Source of the DNA: Rhizobium sp. Root483D2
Lineage (GTDB): Bacteria > Pseudomonadota > Alphaproteobacteria > Rhizobiales > Rhizobiaceae
DNA: 64,000 nucleotides
NCBI RefSeq assembly: GCF_001426685.1
Contig: NZ_LMFB01000015.1
Coordinates: 62,001-126,000 of the forward strand
Direction of reading: 5' to 3'
Below the pieces are notes generated by a model. That model saw nothing but the letters and a program-made list of their open reading frames with translations, had not been told where the DNA came from and searched no databases. Position 1 is the first letter of the stretch, and each line of letters opens with the position of its first letter. Shown here one piece after another: positions 37,880-41,398 of this stretch. The translations under genes were made by a program, and so were the position numbers.

Positions 37880-38653
37880 TCACCCATAAAGGCATTTGAT
37901 ATAGTCACCCGAACGGCTGGCGCGGCGCTCGATCATTGCGGCGAGGCTGCGCAGGCCACGGCCGGGCTTGCCGGCATTGCGTTCGATCGGATTGGGCAGG
38001 GACACGGCAAGAAGTGCCGCCTGCCGCCGTGTCAGCTTTGCGGCGGGAACGCCGAAATGGTGTTGTGCCGCCGCCTCGGCGCCATAGATGCCGGGACCCC
38101 ATTCGGCGACATTGAGATAGAGTTCCATCATCCGCTGCTTGCTCCAAACGAAATCGGATGCCAGCGCCAAAGGCAGCTCCATTCCCTTGCGAATGAAGGA
38201 GCGGCCGTTCCAGAGAAAAAGGTTCTTGGCTGTCTGCATCGGGATCGTCGAGGCGCCCCGGGTGGATTCGCCTTCCAGCGCATCGTTGACGACGCCGCGC
38301 ATCTGCACCCAATCGACACCGTCGTGGATGCAGAACTGCCCATCCTCCGACATCATCACCGAGCGCACCAGATTGGGCGAGATGTCTTCGAAAGCGACCC
38401 ATTGGCGGTCATAGCCGCGCAACAGAACGAGATCGCGCAGCATCAGCGTCGAAATCGGATGGATGAAGCCCGGTGCATAAATGACGATCAACAGATAGGG
38501 CAGGATGGCGATCGCGACCGCGATCAGAAGAATCTGGCGCCAGCGCCGGCGCAAGGCCTCGCCCCATCCCCGCGCACGGCTCGTCGGCACGTCCTTTTCC
38601 TCCCGAGATTCCGGTACAATGTCCACCCCTGAAACGCCCGCCTGATGATCCAT
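37880..38653 (-). CDS. mtgA: Monofunctional biosynthetic peptidoglycan transglycosylase
   Basis: 257 residues from ATG 38653. The short cytoplasmic basic N-terminus is followed by one membrane helix ([20 protein letters not shown], about 41-60) and a periplasmic GT51 domain with [14 protein letters not shown] (catalytic Glu), [16 protein letters not shown] and [15 protein letters not shown]. It polymerises lipid II into glycan strands and has no transpeptidase domain. The longer frame upstream overlaps the divergent synthase gene and is not family sequence. Confidence 0.95.
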
Positions 38654-38797
38654 CCAATTTTCATAGAACAAGCGCGGATAAAATTGAACGGTTTTCTCGG
38701 TAACGCACAGCAAGACACGCCCGCGAGCGCCGATGGGAGCGCCGATATGGTAAAATCCCGTTGCCAGCGGGCGCGCAGTCATGCCAAACAGCGCCGC

Positions 38798-39706
38798 ATG
38801 AGCGAGACATCCTTCGAAATCCGCCTGAAGTCCTGCGCCGCAGAGGTCGAGGCGTGCCTGACCGGCATTCTCAGTGAAGAGCCGCAGCCGGACGAAATCG
38901 CCAGGCCCGCACCGCTCCTTGCCGCCATGCGCCACGGTGTGCTGAATGGCGGCAAGCGGCTGCGGCCCTTTCTGGTGATGGAAAGCACCGCCTTTCTCGG
39001 CGGCGACAGGCAAGCGGCCTTACGCATCGGCGCAGCGCTCGAATGCGTTCACAGCTATTCGCTGGTTCACGACGACCTGCCGGCCATGGATGACGACGAT
39101 CTTCGCCGCGGCCAACCGACGGTGCATATCGCCTATGGCGAGGCCAATGCGATCCTTGCCGGCGACAGTCTGCTGACCCTTGCCTTCGATATCATTGCAG
39201 CCCCGCAAACAAACTTGTCCGACCGGCAGAAGACCGAACTGGTGCTGGCCTTGGCGCGTGCCTCCGGCATTGGCGGCATGGCAGGCGGGCAGGCGCTGGA
39301 TCTGGCTGCCGAGACATCGGCCCCGGACGAAGCCGCGATTGTGACGCTGCAGGCGATGAAGACCGGCGCGCTGATCCGCTTTGCTTGCGAAGCCGGCGCC
39401 ATCATCGCCGGGGGCAGCGCCGGCGACCGCCGGCTGATGCGCAGCTACGGCGAGACGATCGGCCTTGCCTTCCAGCTGGCCGACGACCTGCTCGACCTCA
39501 CGGCGGACGCAAAGACGATGGGCAAGGCGACTGGCAAGGACGCCGCCCGTAGCAAGGGCACGCTGGTCTCGCTGCATGGCCAGGCCTGGGCGGAAACCCG
39601 GCTGGCAGCCCTCGTGGCTGAGGCGGCCACCCTGCTTCAGCCATTCGGCAACCGTGCCGATATTCTGAACCAGACCGCGCGTTTTATCGCTAATCGCAGC
39701 CACTGA
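38798..39706 (+). CDS. ispA: Polyprenyl (farnesyl-type) diphosphate synthase
   Basis: 302 residues from ATG 38798; an in-frame ATG at 38747 is an alternative. The first aspartate-rich motif is D92-D-L-P-A-M-D98 and the second DDLLD near 229-233, both binding Mg-diphosphate. The long first motif and the NGGKRLRP start block fit the short-chain bacterial FPP/GGPP synthases. It condenses IPP with allylic diphosphates; ispG of the same pathway is at 41400. Chain length cannot be settled from motifs alone. Confidence 0.92.
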
Positions 39707-39920
39707 TATCGGCGGACGGCGCCCGGTTTTTCACGGCATTTTCGTCTCACTCTCAACGCAAGAACGCACTGCAACGGCTTGTCCGCTAAGGGGGATAGTT
39801 GTATCTGATTTTGCCTGCACAGTCTTGGATTTATGCATGGATGCATATTTCAAGCGCCTGTAATAAAAGGCATTTTAACTTTGCCTTATTGACACGTCTG
39901 TGTGTTTGAAATATCTCCAA
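39707..39920. other. Spacer with the presumed mntP promoter
   Basis: About 210 bases between the polyprenyl synthase stop and the riboswitch. AT-rich around 39840-39895, where the promoter for the riboswitch transcript should lie. No open frame or terminator was recognised. Confidence 0.5.
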
Positions 39921-40038
39921 CGGCATCGGGGAGTAGCCACTGCATATCCCTGCAGGATCGTATCAACATGCTTGCGCCCATGCGCATGGTGCGATCGGCC
40001 GAGACGCTCGGCCCGGCAAGACCGTGGCGACGATGCCC
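39921..40038 (+). ncRNA. yybP-ykoY manganese riboswitch upstream of mntP
   Basis: The spacer before mntP carries the conserved elements of this riboswitch in order: P1 5' strand GGCATC (39922-39927), GGGGAGTAGCC (39928-39938), TCAACATGCT (39963-39972), GGCCGAGA near 39997-40004, GGCAAGACCG (40015-40024), and P1 3' strand GATGCC (40032-40037). P1 closes exactly. Members of the class bind Mn2+ and switch on Mn exporters such as MntP, the gene 56 bases downstream. A weak 5-bp CGGAC/GTCCG stem followed by T5 (40042-40081) may be the expression platform. It was identified by eye, not with a covariance model. Confidence 0.88.
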
Positions 40039-40093
40039 TGCCGGACAGGCAATCAACGCCCGGGTTCCCACGTCCGTTTTTGAAGGCTCATCC

Positions 40094-40651
40094 ATGTCAC
40101 CGTTTACCATTGCCATGCTGGCAATCAGCATGTCCGTCGATGCTTTTGCTGTTGCCGTCGGCCGGGGTGCTGCCATCGGCCGGCCAAAATTTCGCGAAAC
40201 CATGCGCACCGGTCTCGTCTTCGGCATCATCGAAGCCATCACCCCGATCATCGGCTGGGCCGCAGGCGTTGCCGCCAGCCAGTTCGTCCAGGCGGTCGAT
40301 CACTGGATCGCGTTCGCGCTGCTGGGAACCGTCGGCATCCACATGCTCTACGCATCGACACAGAAGAGCGAAGCGGCACCATCCGCGCAATTGTCTCTTC
40401 CGCTGTTGATGGCGACGGCGATCGGCACCAGCCTCGACGCGATGGCTGTCGGCGTTTCGCTGGCCTTTCTCGACGTCAACATTTTCGTCATTGCAGCCGC
40501 CATCGGCGTTGCGACCTTCCTGATGTCCTCGGGCGGCATGCTGGTCGGGCGCCTGATCGGCGAGCGTTTTGGCCGGATCGCCGAGGCGCTGGCGGGCGTG
40601 GTTCTGGTGGGCCTGGGGATCTCCATCCTGATCGAACATCTGTCGGCTTGA
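40094..40651 (+). CDS. mntP: Manganese efflux pump MntP
   Basis: 185 residues from ATG 40094, six predicted membrane helices. The two internally repeated motifs [14 protein letters not shown] (helix 1) and [15 protein letters not shown] (helix 4) carry the Asp residues typical of MntP (DUF204). It exports Mn2+ to prevent intoxication. The in-frame extension back to 39902 runs through the riboswitch and is not coding. Regulation by the upstream Mn riboswitch is expected. Confidence 0.95.
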
Positions 40652-40759
40652 GCAAGCCGGCAAAATTGTCACCGCAACAAGAATGCGCGTTTTCTTTATT
40701 GGCGCGGTCTGCATGATGGCGCCCTGCCGCGCTTGAAAGCGCTGCCCGGAGATTGCTGC

Positions 40760-41398
40760 ATGTCCACCATTTTGCCCTACCTGCCGCAACTGATGGTCGC
40801 CTGGGGCGCCTATGTCATCGCCACCGCATCGCCGGGCCCGGCCGTCGTCGCCATCATCTCGACGGCCATCAGCCGGGGCCGCAATGCCGGACTGGCGCTG
40901 GCCTTTGGTGTTCTGACAGGGTCCTATACCTGGGCGATGCTGGCAGCCGCTGGGCTTTCGGCGCTGATCAGCACCTATGGCAACGCCTTGTTCATCCTCA
41001 AGATTGCCGGCGGTCTCTATCTGCTCTGGCTGGCGTTCAAGGCACTGAAATCGGCGATGCGGAAGGAGACAGAGGCCACTCTGCCGCTCGAGAAACAGCC
41101 ACCCTCGTTGCGCCGTCTCTACTTCAAGGGGCTCGGCATCCACCTGACCAATCCGAAGGCAATCTTTTCCTGGCTGACGCTGGTATCGCTCGGCACGCCG
41201 CAGGATGCGCCGCAAGTCATGCCCGTCCTGATCGGCGGCTGCATGGTGCTCGGCATCATCATCTTCATGGGCTTTGCGCTGCTGTTTTCGATCGAGCCGG
41301 TACACCGCGGCTACAAAAAGTCCCGCCGCTGGATCGAAGGCGCCATGGCTGGGTTTTTCGCCTTTGCCGGCCTCAAGCTGTTGACCGTGAAACTATAG
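40760..41398 (+). CDS. LysE family exporter (third copy)
   Basis: 212 residues from ATG 40760. WGAYVIATASPGPAVVAIISTAISRGRNAGLAL holds the P-G-P motif of helix 1-2 (shown as a landmark), and HLTNPKAIFSWLTLVSLG the N-P-K block. About six membrane helices. RhtB/LysE proteins export amino acids. Its stop is one base from the stop of the convergent ispG gene, with no terminator visible between. Confidence 0.9.
   Translation: MSTILPYLPQLMVAWGAYVIATASPGPAVVAIISTAISRGRNAGLALAFGVLTGSYTWAMLAAAGLSALISTYGNALFILKIAGGLYLLWLAFKALKSAMRKETEATLPLEKQPPSLRRLYFKGLGIHLTNPKAIFSWLTLVSLGTPQDAPQVMPVLIGGCMVLGIIIFMGFALLFSIEPVHRGYKKSRRWIEGAMAGFFAFAGLKLLTVKL

Follow-up and report, generated by a model that had tools for sequence, protein, structure and literature searches.

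A predicted Mn2+ riboswitch precedes mntP

The leader of a manganese exporter gene in Rhizobium sp. Root483D2 raises the question of how an RNA that senses Mn2+ would pass its state on to the gene behind it. A preliminary description had placed a manganese riboswitch of the yybP-ykoY class upstream of mntP in a rhizobium-type genome, and had left the choice between termination and ribosome access open. We analyzed the window, a stretch of 64,000 nt (contig NZ_LMFB01000015.1, positions 62,001 to 126,000), within which coordinates are counted from the first letter; features lie on the forward strand (+) unless a minus sign is given. A covariance-model scan had been proposed in that description. 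Run over the whole window with cmscan and Rfam 15, it returned RF00080 (Manganese, yybP-ykoY) at 39916–40014 (+) with 65.3 bits (E 7.1e-15; gathering score, 45 bits), covering model positions 1–177, and this element is the single RF00080 match at E ≤ 0.001 in the 6.04-Mb genome. The match ends 79 nt 5′ of mntP (40094–40651), which encodes a manganese efflux pump of 185 aa. Its product, the exporter expected for this class, scores 164.8 bits against Pfam PF02659 and 182.5 bits against the NCBIfam MntP equivalog NF008546, below the cut-off of 214; the MntP of L040, the nearest relative in the named collection, is 98% identical.

For comparative analysis we aligned 36 rhizobial mntP leaders out of 54 candidates (alignment A1). 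Left out of A1 as more distant were L075, L076, L078, L080, L086, L094, L121, L122, L125–L127, L130, L131, L133, L136, L139, L142 and L145, together with the artefactual long second range of L044. Two conserved blocks of the window, L1 (GGGGAGUAG, 39928–39936) and L3 (UCAACAU, 39963–39969), aligned to RF00080 with high posterior and are largely invariant in A1. The L1 5′ block GGAGUAG (39930–39936) runs into the 5′ strand of P1.2 (GCC, 39936–39938), which pairs with 40015–40017; the P1.2 3′ strand GGC and the L1 3′ block (C)AAGA, together 40015–40021, are kept in A1. Between them, P2 (39940–44/39951–55), P3.1 (39956–62/39990–96), L3, P3.2 (39973–77/39982–86) and P4 (39997–40003/40007–13) were drawn from the sequence with the RF00080 alignment as guide, and the helix names over 39940–40013 were assigned in this analysis. 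Taken together with the metal-homeostasis gene downstream and the switch helix P1.1 adjoining L1, these features make the predicted Mn2+ riboswitch a plain member of RF00080. The aptamer core, block order, P2/P3/P4 layout and downstream exporter gene are common to both, and the aptamer of the window shows no difference. The difference lies beyond it: the Rfam consensus, in its printed alignment, stops at P4, shows no pairing of the P1.1 strands and lacks the platform helices S0, S1 and S2 described below, which the window element has. Position 40014 was rejected as the boundary of the functional element because L1, P1.1 and the platform extend to the start codon.

P1.1 is the conserved closing helix

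The preliminary description had held that helix P1 closes exactly. The complementarity behind that statement, GGCAUC (39922–39927) with GAUGCC (40032–40037), does exist in the window sequence. Across the 36 leaders of A1, its six pairs form in 36.4% of cells against a shuffled mean of 38.8%, and 470 of 500 shuffles do as well or better, so that it was rejected as P1. The conserved closing helix is instead P1.1, in which CGG (39927–29) and C39924 of the 5′ strand (39923–39929) pair with CCG (40022–24) and G40027, respectively. Its three inner pairs form in 36/36 relatives, one of them changing from GC to AU in 5, and the outer pair forms in 27/36. P1.2 (39936–38 with 40015–17) is likewise paired in 36/36, and two of its three pairs show double-sided changes. 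Combined, P1.1 and P1.2 are paired in 96.4% of cells (shuffled mean 91.0%; reached by 0/500 shuffles) and hold 19 double-change cells versus 4.9 after shuffling (0/500); the number of pairs with a double-sided change (3) does not exceed that in shuffles (268/500). The names P1.1 and P1.2 were transferred onto the window sequence in this analysis, and the published P1.1/L1/P1.2 layout agrees with the window helices, as far as the excerpts of PMC6754395 go.

These compensating changes, the above-threshold RF00080 score and the exporter downstream bear out the assignment of a manganese riboswitch to this locus. They also bear on whether the aptamer now recognizes a different divalent metal, or persists only as a relic. 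Variants of the yybP-ykoY motif with other ligands are suspected (PMC7266159, excerpts); here, the core blocks and the helices next to L1 are kept with compensating changes and the downstream gene belongs to the MntP family, and we regard retuning or decay as extremely improbable.

Two crossing helices lie between the aptamer and the start codon

From L1 to the start codon, the leader comprises a conserved stretch of ~70 nt. Within it, the segment ACCG.GGNG, which contains the 3′ strand of P1.1, is complementary to a downstream segment, CNCCCGGU; we call this pairing S0. In the window, the switch strand CCG(u)GGCG (40022–40029) can serve either as the P1.1 3′ strand or as the S0 5′ strand, the latter through pairing of 40022–24 and 40026–29 with CGCCCGG (40057–40063). 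Enclosed by S0 is the hairpin S1, formed by GAUGC(c)CU (40032–40039) and AGGC(a)AUC (40047–40054) with two bulges, whose loop contains CGGAC (40042–40046). This loop strand is complementary to GUCCG (40072–40076), a pairing that we call S2 and that covaries in relatives. S0 spans the 5′ but not the 3′ strand of S2, and the two helices therefore cross. A Shine-Dalgarno-like AAGG (40083–40086), read from the sequence, lies 6 nt 3′ of S2 and 7 nt 5′ of the start codon, and is left unpaired by S2.

Pair counts for S2 and for S0 with S2 were made on A1 and on a second alignment, A3, whose 32 rows (31 distinct) were hand-picked from the same 54 candidates after the sequences had been seen, to span divergence. 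A3 adds leaders more distant than those of A1 and omits L002, L003, L005, L007–L009, L041–L045, L047, L057, L060, L069, L074, L079, L081, L127, L131, L132 and L145. In A1, S0 and S2 together are paired in 89.5% of cells (shuffled mean 86.5; 0/500), slid registers reach at most 39.5%, and five of the eight S0 pairs show double-sided changes in some of the relatives; S2 is almost invariant there and A1 thus says little about it. In A3, where S0 joins columns 4–12 to 49–56 and S2 joins columns 28–32 to 64–68, S2 also occurs as CGGGC:GCCCG and CGAGC:GCUCG. S2 alone is paired in 96.1% of A3 cells, with 17 double-change cells versus 6.3 in shuffles (0/500), which come from few groups of related leaders and so represent few independent events; neither its pairs with double-sided change (2; 358/500 shuffles) nor its extra pair types (4; 486/500) exceed the shuffles. 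S0 and S2 together are paired in 95.8% of cells, with 37 double-change cells versus 12.9 (0/500; 31 distinct leaders). When partner strands were permuted among 18 representatives, complementarity to the leader's own partner stood out for both S1 (p = 0.0002) and S0 (p = 0.0002). The proposed pseudoknot platform thus consists of two crossing helices that both covary, the S2 changes being confined to few groups of relatives.

In the window itself, S2 has only 5 bp and S1 is bulged. Taken alone, the window gives p = 0.31 for S2 when the region from −32 to −10 is shuffled, and z = +0.17 (p = 0.59) in a joint test of S1 and S2; its case for S2 therefore rests on the relatives. Ligand-free, pseudoknot-free folding gives S0 a probability above 0.5 in 26/36 leaders (not above 0.5 in the remaining 10/36) and P1.1 one above 0.5 in 0/36. 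For the platform region of the window, the best five S0 pairs average 0.88, and S1 is predicted in a close register.

Six leaders belong to neither A1 nor A3 on account of a different platform. Five of these (L061, L063, L065, L066 and L070) are rhizobial leaders that keep the aptamer, lack an S0/S2 pair of the window type and are without CCCGG or GUCCG; in four (L063, L065, L066 and L070) a hairpin loop reads GGCCAA, with UUGGC close behind. The sixth, L068, keeps the aptamer and is missing the CGGAC loop. Neither alignment includes L010, L082, L083 or L128, further non-rhizobial leaders, or loci in which the regex gave no hit.

The T-run is not conserved and the platform adjoins the Shine-Dalgarno sequence

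A weak stem followed by T5 had been noted earlier as a possible transcriptional platform, and both are present: five Ts (40077–40081; alignment columns 214–218) follow GUCCG directly. Precedents for control of transcription exist in this class. The X. oryzae Mn riboswitch works by antitermination (PMC6754395, excerpts), another yybP member acts on transcription (PMC11087558, excerpts), and B. pertussis transcripts end within the riboswitch when Mn is absent (PMC8546581, excerpts). The corresponding reading here would be an intrinsic terminator made of a GUCCG-ending stem and T5, and opposed by P1.1 formation. The T-run dwindles from five in the window to four and three in its nearest relatives and 0–3 elsewhere: four Ts follow GUCCG in L012 of the same species, three in L002, L045, L047 and L049, and 0–2 in the other 30 of the 36 leaders, so that T5 is confined to the window. 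Columns 214–217, which hold the extra Ts, are gaps in 30/36, and some other bases occur at these columns in L004, L005 and L132.

Two stems are possible before T5. The local one, CGGGU:GUCCG (40061–40076), consists of 3 G-C and 2 G-U pairs and is the 1 site returned by a terminator scan, against 1.6 expected from shuffles. The other, between CGGAC (40042–46) and GUCCG (40072–76), has 5 bp, a 25-nt loop and a probability of 0.0 in pseudoknot-free folding of the window. An intrinsic-terminator platform consists of a stable GC stem and a conserved U-run; here the T-run is unconserved and the scan does not rise above shuffles. We rejected an intrinsic terminator as a conserved feature on these grounds, and consider intrinsic termination very unlikely as the output of this leader. 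The choice left open by the preliminary description now leans toward ribosome access, given the unconserved T-run and a covarying platform beside the Shine-Dalgarno sequence.

Termination could also depend on Rho, with the untranslated leader as its site of action, the platform governing exposure of a rut site, and termination as the main output. Rho does act on E. coli mntP alongside the riboswitch (PMC11647493, excerpts). The platform lies at a median of 13 nt before the start codon (test window −32 to −10), a position that points to ribosome access first, and we judge Rho-dependent termination an unlikely main output.

A pseudoknot beside the Shine-Dalgarno sequence would control translation

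P1.1 and S0 exclude each other because both need 40022–40024. The aptamer, P1.1 and P1.2, S0, S1 and S2, and this sharing of 40022–40024 by P1.1 and S0, are supported by the comparative sequence evidence. From them we propose that the Mn2+ riboswitch probably controls mntP translation through a pseudoknot beside the Shine-Dalgarno sequence, with Mn locking P1.1, dissolving S0 and switching mntP on. Without Mn2+, the P1.1 3′ strand (within 40022–40029) would pair with CGCCCGG (40057–40063) to form S0, which would close over the S1 hairpin (40032–40054), and the S1 loop strand CGGAC (40042–40046) would pair with GUCCG (40072–40076), just 5′ of the Shine-Dalgarno sequence. S0, S1 and S2, which we infer to coexist in one molecule, would then make up an H-type pseudoknot that excludes the 30S subunit. 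Mn2+ bound in the L1/L3 core would stabilize P1.1, which would regain the shared strand; S0 would dissolve, the pseudoknot would loosen, and mntP would be translated and export the excess Mn.

Most likely, the Mn-free state with S0, S1 and S2 is OFF and the Mn-bound state with P1.1 is ON, in line with the E. coli precedent. This assignment puts together the mutual exclusion of P1.1 and S0, the folding results and two reports: Mn stabilizes P1.1 against strand invasion (PMC6754395, excerpts), and the ribosome-binding site of E. coli mntP, inaccessible in Mn-free conditions, is freed in the presence of Mn (PMC11647493, excerpts). A review describes control of E. coli mntP at both levels, transcription included (PMC7838592, excerpts). 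The steps by which loss of S0 would loosen S2, and by which S2 would block the ribosome, are the ones we infer in this scheme.

Covariation pair counts look alike for a coexisting pseudoknot and for two alternating folds. S0/S1 and S2 might therefore alternate. In that case S2 would be an ordinary sequestering hairpin, lengthened where the upper S1 strand pairs with the Shine-Dalgarno sequence (S3), and S1 would be the anti-sequesterer. Pseudoknot-free folding does prefer S2 in 4/36 relatives (L004, L005, L073 and L079), and the 5′ arm of S1 can pair with Shine-Dalgarno letters in several leaders, for example CGUUC:GAACG in L062 and GACCG:CGGUC in L004. S3 looked convincing by eye; against permuted partners it was not significant in the 18 representatives (p = 0.078) and was dropped. 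Moreover, because S1 nests within S0 and both are features of the Mn-free state, alternation would leave the Shine-Dalgarno sequence free without Mn, the opposite of the E. coli report. An S2–S1 junction of 0–1 nt in 33 of 47 significant leaders (see below) suits stacked, coexisting helices, the contrast with shuffles being modest (60% vs 36%). On balance, alternation seems doubtful, if less so than termination of either kind, and we favor the coexisting pseudoknot.

S1 and S2 recur in other proteobacterial leaders

In 96 non-redundant downstream regions, a joint S1 + S2 score against dinucleotide shuffles gave 36 regions at p ≤ 0.01 and 50 at p ≤ 0.05. An initial greedy hairpin search settled on different hairpins in several leaders, that of the window among them; it was superseded by this joint test and by a narrower S2 test that confined shuffling to the 23 nt from −32 to −10 relative to the start codon. 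The settings of the S2 test were fixed after the first set had been seen and before fresh loci were looked at; its input of 184 leaders was reduced to 133 non-redundant ones, of which 122 were tested. Among the earlier leaders, 30/87 had p ≤ 0.05 and 16/87 had p ≤ 0.01. Sixty fresh loci were hand-chosen from unfetched matches of the class and phylum scans, mostly higher-scoring ones; start-codon, length or redundancy filters removed 25/60, and 35 were tested, including 3 without an S1 candidate that were scored p = 1. S2 reached p ≤ 0.05 in 17/35 of these fresh proteobacterial leaders and p ≤ 0.01 in 6/35, while 18/35 lay above p 0.05. The binomial tail for 17/35 is 1.5e-13, a value that ignores residual relatedness.

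The 47 significant leaders carry 46 different S2 strands, with a median S2 of 9 bp. The junction of 0–1 nt between S2 and S1 in 33/47 fits crossing helices that coexist in one molecule and is suggestive only: such a junction occurs in 60% of all 109 leaders with any S2 versus 36% in shuffles. Tentatively, and with somewhat less confidence than for the rhizobial leader, we suggest that the translational Mn2+ branch in Proteobacteria, E. coli mntP included, may share one unnoticed platform, a P1.1 swap combined with a pseudoknot beside the Shine-Dalgarno sequence.

Relation to known riboswitches

The E. coli mntP leader resembles that of the window in its gene and in a ribosome-binding site that is reportedly hidden without Mn (PMC11647493, excerpts). 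In the Nissle 1917 copy, the same order of S0, S1, S2 and Shine-Dalgarno sequence can be drawn by eye: CCAUA:UAUGG as S0, an S1 of 11 bp with one bulge, and GCUGGGG:CCCCGGU as S2 with a junction of 0, followed by AGGA. Folding gives the first six S1 pairs a probability of 1.0. The E. coli leader differs in an S1 loop that is 55 nt longer ahead of S2 and in an S0 of 5 bp.

If the model is right, Mn activates expression by undoing a pseudoknot, whereas in the usual case the ligand makes one. Both pseudoknot-free folding and the Rfam consensus miss the platform. The transcription-controlling yybP RNA of structural work is reportedly that of L. lactis. The structural work cited here concerns transcription-controlling members (PMC11087558 and PMC6754395, excerpts). 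The X. oryzae riboswitch (PMC6754395) and the yybP RNA (PMC11087558) likewise combine the P1.1 switch helix with a competing downstream strand; in the excerpts they are described with an intrinsic terminator, whereas the window leader lacks a conserved T-run. For translational members, the coupling of P1.1 to the ribosome is described just as release of the ribosome-binding site (PMC11647493, excerpts), and a covarying crossing platform beside the start codon offers a concrete, mutable structure for that step. Translational preQ1 riboswitches (PMC9495176, excerpts) also have a pseudoknot beside the ribosome-binding site as output. There the ligand makes the knot and the gene goes off, whereas here the ligand would undo a knot in the expression platform.

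One earlier report speculates that the part of the E. coli leader 3′ of the aptamer could fold back as a triple helix (PMC9603457). The word 'pseudoknot' does not occur in the text of PMC9603457 or PMC11647493, and excerpts of PMC11087558, PMC7838592, PMC9495176, PMC7266159, PMC2659441 and PMC5955585 mention none in the platform of this class; with the two founding 2015 papers outside this search, the novelty of the platform is provisional.

Riboswitch and exporter are patchily distributed

RF00080 matches at E ≤ 0.001 were found in 4/26 genomes of the genus, 11/199 drawn genomes of the family, 24/397 of the order, 57/385 of the class and 129/398 of the phylum; scans of more than 40 genomes used stricter filters, by which weak matches are lost. 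MntP is patchy as well: PF02659 occurs at E ≤ 0.001 in 24/199 family genomes, 21 of them over the cut-off, and of the 14 family genomes whose PF02659 match scores 144 bits or more along nearly the entire profile, 8 also have an RF00080 match. Among 21 genus loci with both ispA-like and lysE-like genes, mntP lies between the two in 3 (the window, the same species and L262). Given this patchy co-occurrence and the 3/21 loci, riboswitch and exporter seem to be acquired and lost jointly within the clade, as one small unit.

Strong mntP genes are also present in L014, L015, L016, L020, L021 and L023, whose genomes gave no RF00080 match in the family scan; L020 and L023 carry a TGCAAATGA box upstream, possibly a metal-regulator site. 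In L006 (1501–3031), an RF00080 match of 42.9 bits, below gathering, has the core blocks and precedes not mntP but a cation diffusion facilitator gene (PF01545, 172.7 bits).

Surroundings of the leader in the window

An FPP-synthase gene and a LysE-type gene flank the riboswitch and mntP (window 38645–41398). Promoter-like boxes, TTGACA (39889–39894) and TATCTC (39912–39917) with a 17-nt spacer, were read from the sequence (+) and would make transcription begin at the edge of P1.1; TTGACA is identical and TATC is kept in L012 and L002, and a generic consensus scan found no promoter. Upstream of them, an AT-rich stretch (39840–39885) containing GATGCATATTTCAAG and GCATTTTAAC is a possible operator; L012 and L002 share it with identical or nearly identical sequence.

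A GTG-initiated ORF (39902–40651, +) reads through the entire riboswitch in the mntP frame and on into the gene; it overlaps an antisense ORF of 121 aa (39886–40251, −); both are probably by-products of high GC. The GTG was rejected as an upstream mntP start, aligned homologs mostly having ATGTC at the position of 40094. Elsewhere in the window, Rfam places a ybhL leader (RF00520) at 1755–1859 (−), with 66 bits (gathering score, 50 bits).
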